In this document: one piece after another, positions 25,645 to 46,375 of the stretch
How positions within the stretch are numbered: position 1 is the first letter of the stretch
How the letters are laid out: the number at the start of each line of letters is the position of its first letter
NCBI GenBank assembly: GCA_934718785.1
Contig: CAKVAF010000010.1
Location: 1 to 64,000 of the forward strand
Source of the DNA: an uncultured Campylobacter sp.
Lineage (GTDB): Bacteria > Campylobacterota > Campylobacteria > Campylobacterales > Campylobacteraceae
DNA length: 64,000 nucleotides
Direction: 5' to 3'
Notes under the pieces: generated by a model
What the model was told of the DNA's origin: nothing
Database searches by the model: none
Seen by the model: only the letters and a program-made list of their open reading frames with translations
Position numbers and translations under genes: made by a program

Positions 25645-25752
25645 GTTAAAAATTTAATACCTTGTAAGCGATACTTTGAGCCGCTAGAAAAAAATTCGCA
25701 AGCATTTTAAGTTTCTAGCGTGGGCATATATACAAGGTATTAAATTTTTAAC
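25645..25752 (+). repeat. Conserved-core long hairpin, copy 1
   Basis: Outer arms 25645-25666 and 25731-25752 are complementary over all 22 bases. Inside, CGCTAGAAA (25682-25690) pairs with TTTCTAGCG (25712-25720) around a 21-base apical part with a GCAA loop. The core shares its sequence with copies at 26.9 and 34.2-34.6 kb, but the arms do not. It lies in the 173-base gap between pyrD and the M16 peptidase gene, both on the minus strand, while the core reads in the plus direction. Confidence 0.85.
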
Positions 25753-25775
25753 AGAGTTTAAAATTTAAAATCAAA

Positions 25776-26837
25776 TCATCTTTTCAAATTTTCTCCTATG
25801 ATGTCGCTAATATGCCTTACTCCTTCTTCTTGCATAAGCTCTAATAAGCCCTCGTTAATGTCTTTAACTAAACTAGGTCCTTTAAAGACAAGAGCTGTGT
25901 AAATTTGCACTAGATTAGCTCCGTCCTTAAAGCGTGTGTAGGCTTCTTGCGCGCTGTCTATGCCACCACTTGAAATTAAAAGCGTTTTATTAAAAAGCTC
26001 TTTAGCCACGCCTTTGAAAAAATTTCTGCTTTTTTCTTTAATGAGCGCACCGCTGATACCTCCAAAGGTGCGGTTATTATCAAGCAGGGAATAATCCGTG
26101 CTGGTATTTGCGATGATAAAGCCCTTTGCGCCCTGCTGGCTCGCATTTTGACATAAATTTATGGCTTCTTTGATTTTCATATCCGGGGCGATTTTAATTA
26201 AAATGGGCTTTTGAGTGATTTTTTGAGCTTCATTTAAAAGCTCGTTTAAAAAGCTTGTTTCTTGCAAGGCGCGTAAATTCTTGGTATTTGGCGATGAAAT
26301 GTTGATGATGAAATAATCACACAAATGCTTAAAACTCTCCAAAAGCTGGGTATAATCTTTTATTGCGTCTTCATTTTTCGTCGCCTTATTCTTGCCTATA
26401 TTTGCACCCACTGGCAAGATAAAAGGATATAAAGAGCTTAGGCGAGAGGCGATTTTGCCCGCTCCATCGTTATTAAAACCCATAGCATTTTGCAGACTTT
26501 CTTGCTCCACCAAGCGAAACAAACGCGGCTTTTCATTGCCCGCTTGAGCCTTTGGCGTGAAAGTGCCAAATTCTAAAAAGCCAAAGCCAAGTGCTGCAAG
26601 GGGACGAAACATCGTAGCATTTTTATCAAAGCCTCCAGCAATGCCCACAGGATTGTAAAAATTAAGCCCTAAAAGCTCTTGTTTGAGTCTATCATCATCG
26701 ATGATATAAGCTTTTGCAAAGAAATTTAAAGATGAGGGACAAACAAAGGCAAGGCTTCTTAAAAGCGCTTCTGTAAGGCTGTGAGCAAGTTCTGGGGGCA
26801 ACAAAAAAATCAAGGGTTTTAATTTTTCATAAAGCAA
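25776..26837 (-). CDS. pyrD: Dihydroorotate dehydrogenase (quinone), class 2
   Basis: Membrane-associated flavoprotein that oxidises dihydroorotate with menaquinone for pyrimidine synthesis. N-terminal amphipathic helix (LYEKLKPLIFLLPPELAHSL) as in class 2 enzymes, then LGFGFLEFGTFTP, FNNDGA, the catalytic serine region NISSPNTKN, KIAPD and the FMN-phosphate motif LISSGGI. The frame extends back to 26879, but the TTG at 26837 has TAGGAG eight bases upstream and starts the family N-terminus, so that is preferred (353 residues). Flanked on both sides by members of the hairpin family. Confidence 0.92.
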   Translation of the reverse strand: MLYEKLKPLIFLLPPELAHSLTEALLRSLAFVCPSSLNFFAKAYIIDDDRLKQELLGLNFYNPVGIAGGFDKNATMFRPLAALGFGFLEFGTFTPKAQAGNEKPRLFRLVEQESLQNAMGFNNDGAGKIASRLSSLYPFILPVGANIGKNKATKNEDAIKDYTQLLESFKHLCDYFIINISSPNTKNLRALQETSFLNELLNEAQKITQKPILIKIAPDMKIKEAINLCQNASQQGAKGFIIANTSTDYSLLDNNRTFGGISGALIKEKSRNFFKGVAKELFNKTLLISSGGIDSAQEAYTRFKDGANLVQIYTALVFKGPSLVKDINEGLLELMQEEGVRHISDIIGENLKR

Positions 26838-26921
26838 TTTTAATCTCCTAACTCCACTCCGTAAAGCTTTGCAATTCAAATTTTAAGGCTTGAAATTTAA
26901 AATTGTCAAGCTAAAAATAAA

Positions 26922-27042
26922 GGCTAAATTTGATAAAGTTTAAAAACGAGACGCTTTGATCCGCTAGAAAAAAATGCGCAAGCATTTTAAGTTTCTAGCG
27001 TGAGCAACTGCGCCGAGTGTTAAAGCTTTGTCAAATTTAGCC
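26922..27042 (+). repeat. Conserved-core long hairpin, copy 2
   Basis: Arms 26922-26938 and 27026-27042 pair over 17 positions, with one G-U. CGCTAGAAA (26962-26970) pairs with TTTCTAGCG (26992-27000), and AAAATGC-GCAA-GCATTTT forms a perfect apical hairpin with a GNRA-type loop. A further flanking pair (26882-26896 with 27045-27058, one mismatch) extends the palindrome. It fills the gap between msbA and pyrD. The core is nearly identical to copy 1; the arms are unrelated to it. Confidence 0.85.
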
Positions 27043-27110
27043 CTTCAAACCTTAAATTTAATCCTTAAATCCAAAATATATTTTAACCTTTTTTCCTTAA
27101 ATTTAAGCCT

Positions 27111-28841
27111 TTAATGCAAAGATTTTAGCTTAAATTTCTTATAAAGCTCGCAAGTTTGTAACAGCTCTTTATCATCTCCAAGCCCTACAATTTCGCCTTT
27201 GTCAATGACAGCGATTAAATCCGCGTTTTCTATAGTGCTAAGGCGGTGAGCGATAACTAAAACGAGCCTATCTTTTTTCAAGCTTTCAATGGTTTTGATG
27301 ATGGCTCTTTCGCTTTCATTATCAAGGGCTGAAGTGGCTTCATCAAAGATGAGTAAATCAGGCTCTTTATAAAGCGCTCTAGCTATGGCTATGCGCTGCT
27401 TTTGTCCGCCGCTTAGGTTTTTGCCATGCTCTAAAATTTCTGCATTTATACCGCCCATTTGCTCTACAAATTCTAAAGCATTAGCTTTAATCAAAGCTTT
27501 TTTTACCCTTTCTTTGTTTAATTCTTCACTGTAAGCGATATTATTTGCGATTGTATCGTTAAATAAATAGATATTTTGCGTTACAAGCCCTATTTTGTGG
27601 CGTAAAGATTGAGTGTTATACTCGCTAATATCCACACCATTGATTAAAATCTCTCCCGCATTTTTATCATAAAAGTGCATAAGTAATGAAATGATCGAGC
27701 TTTTGCCCCCACCGCTTGATCCCGCTAAAGCAAACATTTGCCCCTTTTTAAAAGCAAAGCTCACACCCTTTAAAACCTCTTTTTTGCCCTCATAAGCAAA
27801 TTTCACATCCTTAAACTCGATATTTTCAATGCCTTTGCATTCTTTATCCCCGCTTTTTATCTCAGGCTTTAAATCAAGCAAATAAAAGGTGCGCTCACTT
27901 GCTACAATGGCAATTTGAAGCTTGCCATACAAGGATGAAAGCCTTTTTAATGGAGTGTAAGCCATAAAAAGAGCGGCTAAAAAGCTAAAAAATTTGGCTA
28001 TATCAAACTCGCCATTAATCACCTCAAGCCCACCTATGAAAATCACGCCCGCAACACCAACTGCGCCCATCATTTCCATTAAAGGAGAAATTAAAGCATC
28101 CACTTTAACGCTTTTAATGCTTAATTTACAAAGCTCATCATTTTCTTTTTTAAATTTCTCGCTCTCAAGCTTTGTGCTAGTATTTGCCTTAATGAGCTCT
28201 ATATTTTTAAAAATTTCATTCAAACGAGAGAGTAAATCGGCATTTTTTTCTTGTGATTTTTTGCCAAGTTTTTTAAGCTTTTTCATAAAAAGTCTTAAGG
28301 GATAAAGCACGCAAGGCACTACCACAAGGGCTAAAAAAGCAAGCTTTGGACTTTGATAAACCACAACACATAAAAGTCCTATTAAGGTCAAACTTTCTCT
28401 TAAAAAATCAGGAATAATATTTGAAACTATGCTTTGAAGGGCGTTTATATCATTTGTAGAGCGGCTAAGTAGCTCACCGCTTCTAAATTGATTAAAAAAT
28501 TTCATATCTAGCTTTAAAATATGCTCAATCATTTTTTGACGCAATTCTTTAAGTATATTAAGTCCTACAAAGGAGATGAAATAAACTTGCATATAAAGCC
28601 CCAAGCTTTTAGCTAAATAGGCTAAAATCACGGCAAAGGGCAAAATTTTAAGCAAAAACTCATCTTTTTCAAGAAAGATAAATTTCAAAACAGGCTCAAT
28701 AAGCCAGGCACTAAAAGCAGTGCCACCAGCAGTTAAAAGCATACCTAAAATGCTTAAGATAAAAAAAACGAAATATTTTTTATAAAAGGGCTTAAAGCGT
28801 ATTAAAATCTCTTTTAGGCTTAAATTTTTGGCTTCATTCAT
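27111..28841 (-). CDS. msbA: Lipid A / phospholipid flippase, ABC exporter MsbA
   Basis: A 576-residue half-transporter: six membrane helices in the first 310 residues, then an ATPase domain with Walker A GSSGGGKSS, the Q-loop VTQNIYLFNDTI, signature LSGGQKQR and Walker B LLIFDEATSALD. It moves lipid-linked cargo across the inner membrane as a homodimer. Overlaps cysS by eight bases. Placement next to murJ, another lipid flippase, agrees with an envelope role. Confidence 0.88.
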   Translation of the reverse strand: MNEAKNLSLKEILIRFKPFYKKYFVFFILSILGMLLTAGGTAFSAWLIEPVLKFIFLEKDEFLLKILPFAVILAYLAKSLGLYMQVYFISFVGLNILKELRQKMIEHILKLDMKFFNQFRSGELLSRSTNDINALQSIVSNIIPDFLRESLTLIGLLCVVVYQSPKLAFLALVVVPCVLYPLRLFMKKLKKLGKKSQEKNADLLSRLNEIFKNIELIKANTSTKLESEKFKKENDELCKLSIKSVKVDALISPLMEMMGAVGVAGVIFIGGLEVINGEFDIAKFFSFLAALFMAYTPLKRLSSLYGKLQIAIVASERTFYLLDLKPEIKSGDKECKGIENIEFKDVKFAYEGKKEVLKGVSFAFKKGQMFALAGSSGGGKSSIISLLMHFYDKNAGEILINGVDISEYNTQSLRHKIGLVTQNIYLFNDTIANNIAYSEELNKERVKKALIKANALEFVEQMGGINAEILEHGKNLSGGQKQRIAIARALYKEPDLLIFDEATSALDNESERAIIKTIESLKKDRLVLVIAHRLSTIENADLIAVIDKGEIVGLGDDKELLQTCELYKKFKLKSLH

Positions 28842-30228
28842 TATTTTTTTCCCACAAAACGCCCTTTATTGTGTCTTTTAAAATGATATTTTTAGCTAAA
28901 AGTGTGTTTCTAATCTCATCGGCTAGGGCGTAATTTTTAGCCTTTTTTGCTTTATTTCTTAGAGCAATTTTTTCTTCAATTTCTTTTTTAAGAACTTCAT
29001 CAACGCCAAATTTAAAATATTCATTTGCGTTTAAAAAGCCTACGCCTAAAATTAAAGCCGCTTCTTTTAAAGAGCTTTCAAGTTCGTTTTTATCGCCTTT
29101 TTTAGTATCAAGGCTTAAATTGGCTTCTTGTATAAACTCATCTAAAAAGCTTAAGGCTAGAGAAATGTTTAAATCATCATTTAAGGCTTTAAGTAAATTT
29201 AAAGCCAAAGCGCTTTGAAATTTTAAGCTTTTTTCGCCTTTTAAAATTTCACTCTCAAAGTCGCTAAACTCGGCCAAATCAAGCCTTTGTTTAAGTCTAT
29301 AAAGCTTATCAAGCCTTTTTTTACAAGACTTTAAATCCTTTATATCAAAATCAAAATGCGCCCTATAATGAGAACTCAGCAAATAAAGCCTTAAAACTTC
29401 TGCTTGAAAATCCTTTAAAATATCCTTGATAAAAAAGCTATTATTTAGGCTTTTGCTCATCTTTTCGCCATCAATTTTCACAAAGCCATTGTGAAGCCAA
29501 ATTTGAGCTAAGCTTTTATTCCAAGCACAGCGGCACTGACACGCCTCATTTTCATGGTGCGGAAACAATAAATCAATGCCCCCGCAGTGAAAGTCAAGTT
29601 CTTTTTTAAACAAAGCCTCAATCATCACCACGCACTCCGTATGCCAGCCAGGACGGCCTTTGCCAAAAGGCGCGTCATAAAAATCATCATCAAATTTCCA
29701 CAGCACAAAATCACTTTCATTTTTTTTCGCCACTTCTTTTTCAAGGCGGCTCCTTGTCTCATCGGCGTTTCTATGGCTGAGACTAAAATAAGTCTTATCC
29801 TTTGAAGTATCCAAATAAATGCCATCTTCTAAAGTATAAGTAAAACCCTTGTTTTGTAAGGTTTCAATCAAGCTTATCATCTCCTTAATAAAATGCGTCG
29901 CTTTTGGCTTGAAGCTGGGTTCTAGCACATTTAAAGCCCGCATATCTTTTTCATAAGCATGGATGTAAAAATTTGTGATCTCTTCTAGGCTTTGCCCCGT
30001 TTGGCTCATCTTTTTTAAAATTTTATCATCAATATCTGTGTAATTTCTAGCAAACTTAACACTCAGGCCACTGGCTAACAGCGTGCGCCTGAGTAAATCA
30101 AAGCAAACGCTGCTGCGTCCATGCCCCAAATGCGCATGATCATACACCGTAGGACCGCAAAGATAGATATTTGCGCTTGCTTTATCAAAGCTTAATTTTT
30201 GTTTTTTAGCACTATCAAAAAACTGCAA
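28834..30228 (-). CDS. cysS: Cysteinyl-tRNA synthetase
   Basis: Class I synthetase, 464 residues. Zinc-binding cysteine and HIGH region in CGPTVYDHAHLGHGRS, the second zinc site WHTECVVMIEAL...HCGGIDLLFPHHENE, and the KMSKS loop GEKMSKSLNN. The C-terminal DALR-type domain is present. It overlaps murJ by 14 bases on one side and msbA by eight on the other, so the three are translated together. Confidence 0.97.
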   Translation of the reverse strand: MQFFDSAKKQKLSFDKASANIYLCGPTVYDHAHLGHGRSSVCFDLLRRTLLASGLSVKFARNYTDIDDKILKKMSQTGQSLEEITNFYIHAYEKDMRALNVLEPSFKPKATHFIKEMISLIETLQNKGFTYTLEDGIYLDTSKDKTYFSLSHRNADETRSRLEKEVAKKNESDFVLWKFDDDFYDAPFGKGRPGWHTECVVMIEALFKKELDFHCGGIDLLFPHHENEACQCRCAWNKSLAQIWLHNGFVKIDGEKMSKSLNNSFFIKDILKDFQAEVLRLYLLSSHYRAHFDFDIKDLKSCKKRLDKLYRLKQRLDLAEFSDFESEILKGEKSLKFQSALALNLLKALNDDLNISLALSFLDEFIQEANLSLDTKKGDKNELESSLKEAALILGVGFLNANEYFKFGVDEVLKKEIEEKIALRNKAKKAKNYALADEIRNTLLAKNIILKDTIKGVLWEKNNE

Positions 30229-31687
30229 AAGCCAAATCCTTAAAAAAATTTCCTAAAATTTCAAATGCAAAAATGATTTGAGCCTTAAATTCTATCAAAA
30301 TAAAGCTAAAAATAGACAAAAACAAAAGCATAAAAGCAAAAATTTTAAGGCTAAAAAGCGCAAAAAAGTTTTTAAAGCCAAATTCTTTCACATTTGCAAA
30401 CAAAAGATAAAAAGCGCTCATTGAAGCGCTGAGAGCAACGCCTAGCACCTTATATTCAGCCTTTGAAATGAGCAAAACACAAAGCACACTAAAAAATGCC
30501 GAGATTAAAAGAGCCTTAAAAGCAATCATTGCCGCTTGCTTTTGCTTGAATTTCGCATAAAGCCACAAAGAAAATAGCCTTTGAAGCCCAAAGGGCAAAA
30601 GCCCGATCAAATAAGCAATTAAAACAAGGGCAGTGAGCTTGCTATCTTTTGCGCTAAATTCGCCCCTTTCAAATAAAAGCGTGCAAATTTCATTAGCATA
30701 TACAATGCCTACAATCATAGCCAGCAAAAGTAGGAATAAAAGCGCGTTAAAAGCCTTTTTCATAAAATTTAAGCCCATTTTTTCTTCATTATTTTTTATA
30801 TGCCTTAAAATTTTAGGAAAGGCTACCTGAGATAAGGCTATGGCAAAAAGGGCAAGTGGGAGCTGAAAAACGCGGTTTGCATAGTATAAATATGAAATGG
30901 AACCCGCCATTAAAAAGCTAGCTATGGTGGTATCTAAAAGAGAGCTTAGCTGCGTGGCTGAGGAGCCAAGTACGCCATGAAAAAAGCTAGAATAAAATTT
31001 TTTAAGGCTGATTTTTGTTTTTTTAAGTTTTATGCTTAAAAACATGGCCTTTATCACGGCATTTTTACGTAGAGCAAAAATGTGCCAAAGAAGCTGGGCT
31101 AAGCCACTTAAAAGCACCGCATAAGAAAAGATATATAAAATTTCAAGCGTGCTTTCATCTTTAATGAAAAAAGCAGCGATGATGATACAAAGATTAAAAA
31201 AAGAGCTTGAAAACGAAGTGATGAAAAATTTTTGCTCATAATTTAAAAGCGCGGCTAAAAGTGTCACTAAAAAAATAAAAAATAAATACCAAAAATTAAT
31301 AGCCACTAAAGGAGCTGCCATCATAATAAGCTCATCGCTAAAGCCAAAGGCAAAAATTTTAGTAAAAAAGCTTGCAAAAAAGCTCACTAAAAGGCAAAAT
31401 AAAAAAACAATGCTGCCAAATTGAAGCAGCACGGCTAAGGTAAAAGCGCCTTTTTTTCTAGAGCTTGCAAAATGGGGCAAAAAGGCTTGATTGAACGCTC
31501 CTTCAGCAAAAATGCGGCGAAAAAAAGCAGGCATTTTAATGGCAACAAAAAAAATATCGCTAAAAACTCCAGCCCCCAAAAACAAAGCCAAAATAATATC
31601 TCTAACAAGCCCTAGAATGCGAGAAAATAAGATCCCAAAAGCATTGATGATGAAGTTTTTGAAGATTAAATTTTTGATTTTTTTCAT
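30215..31687 (-). CDS. murJ: Lipid II flippase MurJ
   Basis: 490 residues with about 13-14 hydrophobic helices. MVF/MurJ features: FGILFSRILGLVRDIILALFL at the start, FAEGAFNQAFLPHF, and the QLSSLLDTTIASFL and PLALFAIALSQVAFPKI segments. Transfers lipid-linked peptidoglycan precursor across the inner membrane. First gene of murJ-cysS-msbA. It diverges from the FapA-like gene, with 98 bases between starts. Confidence 0.95.
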   Translation of the reverse strand: MKKIKNLIFKNFIINAFGILFSRILGLVRDIILALFLGAGVFSDIFFVAIKMPAFFRRIFAEGAFNQAFLPHFASSRKKGAFTLAVLLQFGSIVFLFCLLVSFFASFFTKIFAFGFSDELIMMAAPLVAINFWYLFFIFLVTLLAALLNYEQKFFITSFSSSFFNLCIIIAAFFIKDESTLEILYIFSYAVLLSGLAQLLWHIFALRKNAVIKAMFLSIKLKKTKISLKKFYSSFFHGVLGSSATQLSSLLDTTIASFLMAGSISYLYYANRVFQLPLALFAIALSQVAFPKILRHIKNNEEKMGLNFMKKAFNALLFLLLLAMIVGIVYANEICTLLFERGEFSAKDSKLTALVLIAYLIGLLPFGLQRLFSLWLYAKFKQKQAAMIAFKALLISAFFSVLCVLLISKAEYKVLGVALSASMSAFYLLFANVKEFGFKNFFALFSLKIFAFMLLFLSIFSFILIEFKAQIIFAFEILGNFFKDLAFAVF

Positions 31688-31749
31688 AAAAATTTCTTTA
31701 TTTTGCTTTTTAAGGGCTTTATTTTAACTTAAAATTGTTTAAAATTGAG

Positions 31750-31755
31750 TATAAT
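31750..31755 (+). promoter_or_regulatory. -10 box of the FapA-ruvA operon
   Basis: TATAAT preceded by AAAATTGAG and followed 30 bases later by the GTG start of the FapA-like gene. AT-rich upstream, no clear -35, in the divergent region with murJ. Confidence 0.5.
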
Positions 31756-31785
31756 TGTGTCAAAATAATTTCAAAGAGTTAAAAA

Positions 31786-33642
31786 GTGTTAGAAGAATTA
31801 ACAAGCAAAGCCCCTTATGATGAGCTTTTGAAAGTATCCGCTCAAAAGGGCATTGATGTCAAAAAGCTTGATTTTAAAATCCTAAGTTTTAGCACCCTTT
31901 ACAGCCTAAATGATGGCGAGAGTAAGGAATTGAGCGAAAAAGAACTCAGCTTTTTTGATGATGATAAAAATTTCTTAGAAGAAAATTTAAAAATCACGCA
32001 AAGTTTTAAAATTTCTATCTTTGAAAAGCAAAACAATGAGCTTAAAGAGCGCGTCAAACTCATTTTAAATAAAGATGAAAGCGCGCTCATTGCTGATATT
32101 AATCTTACAAATTTTAAATTCTATGCGAATTTGCCGCTGGATTTGCTTCAAAGTATTTATAAAAAAATGATTAAAGAAAGACTATTTATAGGGCTTAGAA
32201 GCTTTAATTTTAAGCAAAGTTTGATTGATTTTTTAAATGCTTTTAAAAAGGGGCAAAAAAATCACGCTAAAATTCTAATCAGCCGCGCCATAAAGCCTAT
32301 TAGCCCGATGAATGAGAGCTTAATTTTAGACTATGAATTAAGAGCAAAGCAAAAATTTAATCATGTGCAAAAAATTTCTTATATCGGTATCAAGCAAAAT
32401 GAGCTAGTCCTAACTCACTTCAAGCCAGCAGCTGGGAAAATGGGTAAAAGCTTGAGATTAAAGCCTATTGAATTTCGCGCACCAAAGGATGAGAAAATCG
32501 AGTTTTCTTGCTCGAATAATTTTGAAAGCAAAGAAACAAGCGCTAATGATAGCTTTATCAAAACGCAGTATTTTGCGATGAAAAATGGCTATGTTTTAAA
32601 AGAAGCAAACAATAGCTTTGATATACAAAATGAGCTAAATTTAAACTTGGTCAATTTTAAAGAAGTGGGCGCTATTATCTGCGGACTAGACACTGCAGTG
32701 AGCATTAATGTAAGAAATACAAGCGAGCTTGAAGAAGCTGTGGGCTCAGGCGTGAATATAGAATGTGAAAATCTTACAATCAATGGCACAGTCGCAGGAA
32801 ACACACTTTTAAAGGCTAAAAATTTCAAACTCTATGGCACGAGCAATCCAAAAACAAAAATAATCGCGCAAAATGCCTATATTTCGACACACAAAGGCAT
32901 TTTAGAATGCGAAAACGCAGACATTGACAGCCTAGAAAATGGACAATTAAAAGCAAAAATTGCTGTGATTAAAAAGGCTTTAGGTGGCGTTATCAGGGCA
33001 AATTCGGTGCAAATTTTAAATCTTGTTGGAAATAATCAAATCAATTTCAACAGCATTTGTCTTATCGAACAATGCAGCGGCTCAAATAATAAATTTTTAA
33101 TCTATGCTTTCAAAGATGATGAAGATTTGCAAAGCAAACTTGAAGCTTTAGAGCTGCGCCAAAAGGAATTGCCAAAAATCATTACAGCATTAGAACAAAG
33201 CGTGAGCTCGAGCAAAACTGGGGTTTTAATGCTGATTAAAAAAGCAAATGAGCTCAAAGCTCAAAATCTTAGCGTGCCGCCTAATTTTTCAAGCGTGATA
33301 CAAAATTATCAAAGAAAAAATGAAGAATTAAGCCAGCTTTACAAAGAAAAAAGTGAGCTTGAAATCGCTCAAAAAGAGCTTGAAGCCAAGCTTCAAAGCG
33401 ATGAAGAAGAATTATTTAATGCAAAATTAATCAATAAAAACGGGCTTTGGAGCGATATGAATGAGATAAGATTTCGCCTATTGTTTCCTAAAAAAGAGCT
33501 TTTTTACGCCACGAAAGCCGAAGATAAAAATAGAGTCTTTTGCATACAAAAAAATTATGATAAAGACGGCGAAATCGAAATTCAAAAGGGTAATGAATTT
33601 GATGAAAAGGATATTCAATGTTTTACGCCATCCAGGGCCTAA
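31786..33642 (+). CDS. FapA / DUF342 domain protein
   Basis: 618 residues. The central part is a FapA-type DUF342 beta-solenoid (VGSGVNIECENLTINGTVAG, ILECENADIDSL...GQLKAKIAVIKKALGGVI). It is followed by a long charged coiled coil from about residue 450 to 545 (KLEALELRQKELPKI... ELEIAQKELEAKLQ). No signal peptide, so cytoplasmic. The start is a GTG at 31786 with AAAGAG upstream. Related proteins help polar assembly of flagella and pili by membrane or scaffold binding; that role here is inference. Overlaps ruvA by 25 bases. Confidence 0.8.
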   Translation: MLEELTSKAPYDELLKVSAQKGIDVKKLDFKILSFSTLYSLNDGESKELSEKELSFFDDDKNFLEENLKITQSFKISIFEKQNNELKERVKLILNKDESALIADINLTNFKFYANLPLDLLQSIYKKMIKERLFIGLRSFNFKQSLIDFLNAFKKGQKNHAKILISRAIKPISPMNESLILDYELRAKQKFNHVQKISYIGIKQNELVLTHFKPAAGKMGKSLRLKPIEFRAPKDEKIEFSCSNNFESKETSANDSFIKTQYFAMKNGYVLKEANNSFDIQNELNLNLVNFKEVGAIICGLDTAVSINVRNTSELEEAVGSGVNIECENLTINGTVAGNTLLKAKNFKLYGTSNPKTKIIAQNAYISTHKGILECENADIDSLENGQLKAKIAVIKKALGGVIRANSVQILNLVGNNQINFNSICLIEQCSGSNNKFLIYAFKDDEDLQSKLEALELRQKELPKIITALEQSVSSSKTGVLMLIKKANELKAQNLSVPPNFSSVIQNYQRKNEELSQLYKEKSELEIAQKELEAKLQSDEEELFNAKLINKNGLWSDMNEIRFRLLFPKKELFYATKAEDKNRVFCIQKNYDKDGEIEIQKGNEFDEKDIQCFTPSRA

Positions 33643-34169
33643 TCACGCACAAAGAGCCCACATTTGTGGTGCTTAAGACACAAGGCGGGGTAAGCTACGC
33701 GCTGAGTGTCTCGCTTTTTACCAGCTCAAAGCTTGAAAAAGGCGCGCAAATAGAGCTTTTAACCACGCCCATTTTCAAAGAAGACTCACAAAGGCTTTTT
33801 GGCTTTTTAGAAAAAAGCGAGCAGCAAATGTTTGAGCTTTTGCTCAAGGTCAATGGCATAGGTGCGAGTATAGCGATGGCAGTTTGCTCAACACTTGATA
33901 GCAACGCCTTTTACAAGGCTTTAAGCACAGGAGATGAAAACGCTTTTAAAAGCGTGCCAGGCATTGGTGCTAAAGTAGCTAAACGCATTATCACTGAACT
34001 TAGCGATAAAAAAGTAAGCTTAAGCTTAAGTGATGATGGCAAAACTCAGGCTTTACAAGCCTTAATCACGCTAGGCTTTAAGCAAGAAAAGGCCTTAGAG
34101 GCTTTAAGCAAATGTGAAAGCAAAGAAGTAAGCGCACTTGTCAAAGAAGCTTTGAAAAGGCTTTCATAG
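33618..34169 (+). CDS. ruvA: Holliday junction branch-migration protein RuvA
   Basis: 183 residues: an OB-fold start (MFYAIQGLITHKEPTFVVL), two helix-hairpin-helix motifs (VNGIGASIAMAVCS and VPGIGAKVAKRIITEL), and a C-terminal three-helix RuvB-binding domain. It recognises Holliday junctions and loads the RuvB motor. Translated from inside the FapA-like gene end. Two large hairpin elements follow before ddl. Confidence 0.96.
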   Translation: MFYAIQGLITHKEPTFVVLKTQGGVSYALSVSLFTSSKLEKGAQIELLTTPIFKEDSQRLFGFLEKSEQQMFELLLKVNGIGASIAMAVCSTLDSNAFYKALSTGDENAFKSVPGIGAKVAKRIITELSDKKVSLSLSDDGKTQALQALITLGFKQEKALEALSKCESKEVSALVKEALKRLS

Positions 34170-34221
34170 CATTTTAATTAAAGCTTGATAATTAAATTTG
34201 CTTCATTTTAAGCTTTTGAAG

Positions 34222-34338
34222 CTAAATTTTATAAAGCTTGACGAAAGGCGCTTTTGCCCATTAGAAAAGAAAGTCGTAAGACTTTTAAGTTTCTAATGTG
34301 GCAAACCGCGCCAAAGTGTTAAACTTTATAAAATTTAG
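34222..34338 (+). repeat. Conserved-core long hairpin, copy 3
   Basis: Arms CTAAATTTTATAAAG (34222-34236) and 34324-34338 are perfect complements. GGCGC (34247-34251) faces GCGCC (34308-34312), CATTAGAAA (34259-34267) pairs with TTTCTAATG (34290-34298), and AAAGTC-GTAA-GACTTT caps it. Relative to copies 1, 2 and 4, paired bases in the inner stems have changed on both sides, so the structure is kept while the sequence varies. Located just after ruvA. Confidence 0.85.
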
Positions 34339-34350
34339 TTTTAAATTTAG

Positions 34351-34439
34351 GCTTGAAATTTTCAAAATGAAAAAATTTAAATTTTTTAAATTTAAAAACT
34401 CGCGCCGCTGTTTTTGAATTTATTTGAAAATTTTCAAGC
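34351..34439. repeat. Third palindrome between two hairpin copies, different centre
   Basis: GCTTGAAATTTTCAAA (34351-34366) is complementary to 34423-34439 apart from a one-base bulge. Its centre holds AAAACTCGCGCCGCTGTTTT (34397-34416), a short near-palindromic motif whose GCGGCGCG part recurs near 40181 and 54185 on the other strand. It lacks the conserved core of the neighbouring copies 3 and 4. Confidence 0.5.
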
Positions 34440-34500
34440 TAAATCTAAAGTTAAATTTTATAAAGTTTGAAATTGAGTTAAAATTTAAGTTTTAAATTAT

Positions 34501-34618
34501 GCCAAATGTTTAAAGCCTTTTAACGATACGCTTTGACCCGGTAGAAAAGAAACGCACCAGCGTTTCAAGTTTCTACCGTGGGCAACCGCGTTGAGACAAA
34601 AGGCTTTAAACATTTGGC
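34501..34618 (+). repeat. Conserved-core long hairpin, copy 4
   Basis: The 21-base arms 34501-34521 and 34598-34618 are perfect complements. CGGTAGAAA (34539-34547) pairs with TTTCTACCG (34570-34578), and GAAACGC-ACCA-GCGTTTC forms the tip. The core reads ACGCTTTGACC ... GTGGGCAACCGCG like the others. It ends 36 bases before the ddl start, so the region between ruvA and ddl is almost wholly hairpin DNA. Confidence 0.85.
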
Positions 34619-34653
34619 TATCAAGCTTTTTGATAAATCAAATTTAAAGGAAA

Positions 34654-35694
34654 ATGATGAAATACGCAGTGATTTTTGGCGGTAATTCTTACGAGCATGA
34701 GATTTCAATCATCAGTGCCATCGTGCTTAAAAAGGTCTTTCACGCGCAAATGAGATTTATTTTTTGTGATAGCACGAGAGGTTTTTACCTTGTGCCAGAA
34801 GAAAAGATGAATGCAAAGAGCTTTTCAAGCGCTGCTTATAAAAAATTTACTCCTTTAAACATAGCTAAAGAGGGCTTTTATCTTAAAAAGCTTTTTGGCT
34901 CTAAAAAACTGGATGCTGAAATTTATATCAATTTAATTCACGGAAGTGACGGCGAAGATGGCAAATTAGCTGGAATGCTGGAGTTTTTCAATATCAAATT
35001 TATCGGTGCGCGCCTTGAAGCAAGCGTGCTAAGCTTTAATAAAGAGCTTACAAAGCTTTATGCAAGTAGTGTTGGCGTTAAAACTCTGCCTTATGAAATG
35101 CTTAGAAAAGGGGGGAAAGAGCCAAATTTAAGCTTTCCTTGTATTTTAAAGCCCGCGCGCCTTGGTTCAAGCATAGGCATAAGCGTGGTGCAAAATGAAA
35201 ACGAGCTTGAATATGCTAAGGATTTGGCCTTTGAATTTGATAGTGATATACTCGTAGAGCCTTTTAAAAAGGACATTAAGGAGTATAATCTTGCAGGCTG
35301 CAAGGTAGCAGATGAGTTTGTTTTTAGCATGATTGAAGAGCCTAAGAAAAAGGAGCTTTTGGACTTTGAGCAAAAATATCTTAGCTTTTCGCGTGATGAA
35401 AGCGTGAGCGAAGCGCCTTTAAACGAGACTTTGAAAGAAAAATTAAAAGAAGCTTTTGTTAAAATTTATGAGCCACTTTTTAAGGGCGCACTCATTCGCT
35501 GTGATTTTTTTGTGCTGGATGATGAAGTGTATATCAATGAGATTAACCCTCAGCCAGGAAGCCTTGCAAACTATCTTTTCAAGGACTTTTCACTCACGCT
35601 TGAGCGCCTTGCAAGAAGCATTAAAAATGAAAAATTAATCAAAATTGATTACACTTTTTTACATTCTATCAACGGGCAAAAGGGCAAGCTTTGA
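34654..35694 (+). CDS. ddl: D-alanine--D-alanine ligase
   Basis: ATP-grasp ligase that makes the D-Ala-D-Ala dipeptide for peptidoglycan. Motifs: [15 protein letters not shown] at the start, [34 protein letters not shown] (ATP loop) and [15 protein letters not shown] at the end. 346 residues. Two ATG codons follow an AAAGGA site. It overlaps the next small gene by four bases and feeds its product to MurF three genes on. Confidence 0.96.
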
Positions 35695-46096: not shown

Positions 46097-46146
46097 AATT
46101 TGCCTTGAGTTTTAAAATTGTTTTTTTAAATTTAAACTTTATTTTT

Positions 46147-46260
46147 AAGCTAAATTGATAAAGTTTAACGCTTTGGCGCGCTTGCTCGCATTAAAAACTT
46201 CAAACACTAAAATTTTCTAGCAAATCAAAACATCTTAGATTAATTTTATAAATTTAGCTT
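46147..46260. repeat. Degenerate member of the long-hairpin family (candidate)
   Basis: Arms 46147-46162 and 46245-46260 are complementary at 15 of 16 positions (AAGCTAAATTGATAAA and its partner). Inside, AACGCTTTGG and TTTTCTAGC recall the core of copies 1-4, but the left half of the inner stem and the apical hairpin are not recognisable. It lies in the 279-base gap between hom and the aminotransferase gene, 46097-46375, which otherwise holds nothing I can name. Confidence 0.4.
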
Positions 46261-46375
46261 GAAATTAAGCTTAATAAATTCAAAAATAAATTCTAGCCAA
46301 AAAAGGATTTAAATTTAATAAAATTTTTAGATGAAATTTAAATGAGTAATTTTAAATTTATCAATTTAAAGCTCA

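Follow-up and report, generated by a model that had tools for sequence, protein, structure and literature searches.

Long hairpins with a common core lie between the genes of a 64,000-nucleotide stretch of DNA from an uncultured Campylobacter sp., which we call the window, and the question they raise is what keeps such a core alike at separate loci. A sequence-only reading had proposed either a structured RNA or DNA element under selection for folding, or a mobile core whose insertion sites are the tips of existing palindromes. The four hairpins that it described are present in the sequence. Element 1 (25645..25752, plus strand; arms 25645-25666 and 25731-25752, core 25662-25742) lies between a pyrD-like gene and the next minus-strand gene, and element 2 (26919..27045, plus strand; core 26942-27022) lies between an ABC-transporter-like gene and the pyrD-like one; in both, the structured strand is antisense to the genes. 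Element 3 (34215..34345, plus strand; core 34239-34321), whose structured strand is the sense strand of the genes, and element 4 (34501..34618, plus strand; arms 34501-34521 and 34598-34618, core 34519-34600) share the junction between a ruvA-like and a ddl-like gene. A covariance model of these four copies (R1) found a fifth, element 5 (46144..46263, minus strand; core 46166-46242), a degenerate, decayed copy between two minus-strand genes that was absent from the earlier reading, and a filter-free scan of the window with a later core model (R2) returned the same five copies and no other convincing one. Relative to their own genes, two of the five copies are antisense and three are sense. Gene names here and below (pyrD, ruvA, ddl, sir, cysG, metY, flgE, M67 peptidase) are readings of translations only. 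Between elements 3 and 4, window positions 34321-34468 also hold a 46-nt inverted repeat of 85% complementarity, in which the arm motif AAATTTTATAAAG is seen again, possibly as a small repeat in its own right.

The stems of the window copies are more stable and more frequent than expected by chance. RNA folding z-scores of elements 1 to 4 were -6.05, -10.23, -11.88, and -12.67, with 0/200 dinucleotide shuffles as stable in each case, and a loose inner-stem pattern gave 4 matches where 0.78 were expected, a count reached by 0/100 shuffles. The inner-stem pairs quoted in the sequence-only reading were found (CGCTAGAAA/TTTCTAGCG twice, CATTAGAAA/TTTCTAATG, and CGGTAGAAA/TTTCTACCG), and of the tips said to covary, that of copy 1 is imperfect. 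Arm complementarity was complete in copies 1 (22/22) and 4 (21/21) and partial in copies 2 (78% over 36) and 3 (86% over 28); among non-matching arm pairs in the window, 5/20 scored 30-34, level with the matching pairs (20-36). The claim that the outer arms have no similarity between loci holds for copies 1 and 4 but not for copies 2, 3, and 5, whose related arms have GCTAAATTT-ATAAAG in common by eye. Likewise, the four original cores do point the same way, but the fifth copy is on the minus strand.

A covariance-model search of Campylobacterota genomes, which the sequence-only reading had suggested, found further copies. R1 had matches in 3/15 genomes reached via pyrD-like loci, namely Campylobacter troglodytis (G009) and the MAGs HAN009 (G008) and S17M_St_12 (G007). 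R2 had matches in 6/49 genomes of the genus, 7/153 of the family, and 16/398 sampled genomes of the order. One R2 match, in G041 (L092, E 2.8e-5), is weak and may be a false positive. A third model (R3, built from 54 copies) had matches in 27/397 sampled genomes of the phylum. It recovered all 22 previously positive genomes, with 1 to 17 copies each, which is no independent test since a model finds its own source copies by construction; the independent matches are those outside the model's alignment. The genome searches scored 11 to 150 candidates per genome, and the copy counts are lower bounds. No window element matched Rfam 15 at gathering score, and 12 related loci searched with an E limit of 1 likewise gave no Rfam match. 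When the limit was raised to 5 for window positions 34150-34660, the only matches were low-scoring (miRNA and the like), far below gathering, and we read them as chance; membership in a known RNA family is thus not supported by Rfam. A blastn search with copy 4 alone against PLSDB and INPHARED gave no match. Among the titles and abstract openings that searches of an open-access library brought up, none describes such an element, and in the C. upsaliensis genome paper (PMC539331), which describes a prophage-like element, CUIE1, the main text lacks the word "hairpin."

Elements are about 110-140 bases long, with a common unit of about 200 bases in C. troglodytis, and the folding strand forms a long stem whose fixed interruptions are a tandem G.A loop, a T/CC loop, a bulged T, and, close to the tip, an AAG bulge. 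An early alignment of 10 copies from four genomes already had 13/24 pairs changing on both sides. For the fold statistics, we used the 50 distinct rows among the 54 copies of R3, an alignment that is fitted to the model and so favors structure, and compared them with shuffles that ignore relatedness. Pairing cells amounted to 93.6% versus 71.1% in shuffled alignments, double-sided change occurred in 19/24 pairs (shuffled mean 15.5; 1/500 shuffles as high), and the covariation score was 0.591 versus 0.186 +/- 0.011 shuffled (0/500 as high), with slid partners reaching at most 0.135. The bulged T (GTG) was present in 50/50 distinct rows, and 41/50 had GA in both halves of the loop below the core; in those 41 rows the pair outside GA was C-G in 20, T-A in 19, and other in 2. 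Neither the bulged T nor the G.A loop exists on the opposite strand. The strand that bears them has 36 G.T versus 19 A.C cells (one misaligned pair left out), a count that on its own is weak evidence, as two pairs of a single helix account for 11 of the 19 A.C cells and the opposite strand would form wobble pairs there. From the one-sided loops together with the G.T excess, we take the strand with the bulged T as the one that folds. The covariation is strong and well beyond chance, and with strand-specific loops kept phylum-wide it supports the first of the two earlier proposals, a structured element selected for folding.

The second proposal, a mobile core inserting at palindrome tips, was addressed by comparing orthologous gaps. 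The three window junctions with elements 1 to 4 measure 231, 173, and 484 bp. By nominal gene starts, the same junctions in relatives measure -13 to +13 bp in 19/20 genomes (the exception, C. troglodytis, has 307), -4 bp, an overlap, in 19/19, and 5-13 bp in 19/19, so that genes overlap or lie at most 13 bp apart at 57/58 relatives' junctions. Comparison thus shows the window elements, with their extra AT-rich sequence, to be insertions between genes that normally touch. Such short junctions leave no room for arms, and none of the empty sites, either these 57 of 58 Campylobacter junctions or three at a Sulfurospirillum gap described below, shows any. Mobility is supported in part, and insertion into existing palindromes is not supported. 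In C. troglodytis, three copies at unrelated loci have in common a unit of about 200 bp that includes the arms; one of them is without its left arm, apparently through deletion between short repeats. The 2.9-Mb genome of this species (L013) has other wide gaps besides the 307-bp gap before the pyrD-like gene, which suggests intergenic growth. In another genome, G050, a single chromosomal copy stands before an flgE-like gene. At this site, 15/18 relatives inspected have, as judged by eye, a short hairpin that resembles a terminator and is unrelated in sequence, and the rest are G048 and G025 with other repeats and one relative with another sequence. The repeats in G048 (L318) and G025 (L319), CGTCATTACGAG / CGTCATTGCGAG, are reminiscent of CGTC-tagged REPs; between genomes, several repeat families occupy the gap before the flgE-like gene. 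No target-site duplication was seen by eye at the Sulfurospirillum gap or the G050 site, and the sites compared included no near-identical filled/empty pair.

In Sulfurospirillum, a sulfite-reductase-like operon holds two copies with 3.7 kb between them. At gap A, which was readable in 18 of the 19 genomes with the gene (G494 left out), the element runs one way in 7 and the other way in 7, is missing in 3, where the gap is 35 bp or the genes overlap, and is replaced by other sequence in 1. In this last genome (L297, G340), the gap between an M67 peptidase-like gene and sir holds a different hairpin-rich sequence of about 170 bp. At gap B, 5/8 copies run one way and 3/8 the other. The outer arms, e.g. 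GAAGAAGGC/GCCTTCTTC, are kept while the inside inverts. On a sir tree, the orientation labels change at least 9 times and are no more clustered than shuffled labels (as low in 147/200), with only 3/15 inner branches well supported, so that allele exchange between species could mimic flips. The flips at both gaps and the unclustered labels argue that orientation relative to host genes in this operon is not under strong selection.

The densest copies lie in phages. Within G050, 15 of the 16 R2 copies fall within 39 kb, and in G048 all 9 fall within 34 kb; we read both stretches as prophages. The G050 stretch has PHROGs matches to an integrase, DnaB helicase, primase, portal, large terminase, and major head protein, and its portal is about 52% identical to those of Helicobacter phages such as KHP40, a Schmidvirus. 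Two IMG/VR proviruses (L129 and L130) had 7 copies each in the stretches searched, L313, which is the same provirus as L129, had 3 more, and contigs L309 and L314 had one each in the stretch searched. A second, Mu-like phage kind in G114, with genes for a DNA transposition protein, tail sheath, and baseplate, has 16 copies, several of which follow one another in tandem with a spacing of 111 or 113 bp. Copy numbers are thus 15, 9, 10, and 7 in four related proviruses and 16 in the Mu-like one. Presence throughout the phage family was ruled out, as L131, a provirus with a related head gene, and three Helicobacter phages had no match in the stretches searched; the gaps around the L131 head gene hold other stem-forming sequences, perhaps a second family of phage gap elements. 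The core pattern as seen outside Campylobacter had 0 matches in IMG/VR, and a looser one matched at least 120 stretches, two of them in the G050 provirus. Many of the G048 and G114 phage copies contain TGTGGATAA, the complement of the E. coli DnaA box; we dropped this candidate because the stretch overlaps covarying stems, differs elsewhere, and is not conserved in the family. The G048 provirus also has a 5014-codon open reading frame (378147-393191; L125, L126), probably a giant phage protein with many domains, and G050 a 2446-codon frame.

In these phages, orientation is fixed. The structured strand ran counter to the gene direction that prevails in its block in 56/56 counted copies: 15/15 in G050, 9/9 in G048, 7/7 in L129, 3/3 in L313, 7/7 in L130, 1/1 each in L082, L309, and L314, and 12/12 in co-directional gaps of G114, whose four further copies in a divergent gap were left out of the 56. 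Two G050 copies (813255 and 816708) have a minus-strand frame as one of their neighbors and were counted by prevailing direction. Where G114 and L313 have an oppositely running gene block, that block carries reversed copies, indicating that orientation follows transcription. These observations speak for transcript punctuation, by which the hairpin would be a cis-acting mRNA element that sits at the 3' ends of phage genes and serves RNase III-type processing, protection of the end, or termination, with the chromosomal copies as relics or borrowed terminators, an explanation we regard as possible though doubtful. It draws further support from position, since 21/38 copies in four proviruses have their core no more than 120 nt past the stop codon of an open frame that spans 90 codons or more (median 106 nt), and from the flgE-like site, where the G050 element stands in place of the short terminator-like hairpin of most relatives. 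Yet the remaining 17/38 copies lie more than 120 nt from such a stop, and it is the antisense strand of the phage genes that bears the G.A loop and the G.T excess, which speaks against a plain mRNA hairpin. Furthermore, the 3' flanks inspected for 16 phage copies show no U tract after the hairpin, and -10-like motifs are not enriched downstream of phage copies, which together count against a simple intrinsic terminator or promoter; outside Campylobacter, A/T tracts do surround the arms of some copies. Free flipping within the Sulfurospirillum operon also counts against punctuation.

By a reading that we consider rather unlikely, a phylum-wide folded-DNA element would be used by phages as one-way gene-boundary marks, with a dedicated recombinase or binding protein reading the folded strand behind phage genes and thereby shuffling gene modules or controlling their ends, and the element would also spread into host chromosomes, where its free inversion would mark it as selfish.

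We think it improbable that the hairpin is an integron-like site at which a tyrosine recombinase recombines the folded strand, so that phage genes would be de facto cassettes. Several features of the phage copies do resemble such a system. Hairpins stand behind many single genes, a tyrosine integrase adjoins the first hairpin in G050, gene order between hairpins partly differs between G050 and G048 (by eye), and the one gap after the major head gene has four different arm classes in four phages (by eye). A few mosaic copies combine arms from different classes (11848 and 18154 in L129, 398077 in G048, 826086 and 839882 in G050; by eye). As described in PMC2727003, attC sites also lie 3' of genes and are recognized as a folded bottom strand via extrahelical bases and an internal loop, and the antisense position of the folding strand is common to that bottom strand and to our hairpins. 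The same paper (PMC2727003) has attC sites alike at their boundaries (R boxes) and variable in the apical part, the reverse of the hairpin family, which is alike internally and varies at its boundaries. In addition, hairpins also occur side by side without an intervening gene and in tandem arrays, and the mosaics are few and fit ordinary homologous recombination.

Least probable of all is a passive palindrome whose conservation reflects common descent, with template switching yielding all covariation without selection. In its favor, such switching maintains hairpins and inverts spacers (PMC8794818, PMC8604942), and copies 1 and 4 have arms that match perfectly and not in a wobble-tolerant way. 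The same switching would, however, erase mismatches, whereas the bulged T persists phylum-wide, as for the most part does the G.A loop, while pairs turn over.

We conclude that the hairpin family is real, widespread, structurally conserved, and mobile in effect. The explanation that we favor, and to which we give an even chance, is that the copies are a non-autonomous mobile hairpin of Campylobacterota that is recognized in folded form and carried by phages, with template switching explaining the matched arms and the flips. Some trans-acting protein would recognize the folded strand and move the element, and it is likely that the core is conserved because of this recognition. Phages, judging from their dense intergenic copies, would be the probable vehicle. 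Chromosomal copies land in gene junctions, as the comparison with relatives shows, and then flip and disappear, the pattern seen in Sulfurospirillum. Arm sequences drift while the two arms mostly stay complementary. PMC8604942 describes template switching between inverted repeats as "homogenization of IR arms" and "IR spacer inversion," and PMC8794818 describes it as creating and maintaining stems; DNA-polymerase template switching within the hairpin may likewise homogenize its arms and invert its spacer. With arms that stay matched while they change and a centre that flips, such switching is the best explanation for those features, but alone it would erase the loops, and selection on the core is therefore also needed. 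If the fold mattered only in the host transcript, orientation should count, because the two strands differ in the loops they form, and Sulfurospirillum shows otherwise; the fixed loops are thus best explained by recognition of the folded element by a putative mobilizing or binding factor.

The mobile hairpin has difficulties of its own. No transposase or recombinase is tied to the element, and a RAYT as mobilizer is not supported, as Y1 transposases (PF01797) were absent from 8/13 carrying genomes and present in 2/13 genomes without element matches. Undirected insertion and flipping would not predict the uniform phage orientation, which suggests that either an additional directional role or transcription-coupled insertion acts there. 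Copies in host operons could serve the host, and the poor support of the sir tree leaves interspecies allele exchange as a possible mimic of the flips.

Among known systems, MITEs such as Correia and ERIC are, like the hairpin family, short non-coding mobile foldable elements between genes, and the dispersed copies and empty sites of the family are MITE-like. MITEs have fixed terminal inverted repeats and target duplications, whereas in the hairpin family the ends vary between loci and the centre is fixed, with some arm classes recurring within a genome or phage group. The RNase III sites of phage T7 are irregular hairpins between phage genes in fixed orientation and are not a mobile sequence family; our hairpins differ in that their structured strand is antisense and copies also occur in chromosomes. 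REP/BIME sequences with RAYT are, according to PMC3733652, likewise intergenic palindromes mostly after coding regions, and GTAG REPs are hypothesized there to be moved in trans. The REPs are 20-40 bases long, compared with 110-140 for the hairpins, which by eye are without a GTAG or CGTC end tag in the copies inspected, have variable outer arms around a fixed inner core, take a fixed orientation in phages, and occur in genomes that mostly, as noted, lack the RAYT of GTAG REPs. We rate the family as a non-autonomous intergenic palindromic element, a known kind, with an inside-out conservation and a phage link of which we found no description in the open-access literature.

If this explanation is true, the family would be a mobile element whose conserved part is the fold and not the ends, and a search for fixed terminal repeats would overlook it. 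The Sulfurospirillum junction, where related species differ by joint changes of the arms and by flips of the centre, would then offer a natural experiment on template switching versus selection for folding, and the uniform direction of the phage copies opens a hidden directional function to testing. The hairpin element would also link two phage kinds with host chromosomes across the whole phylum.
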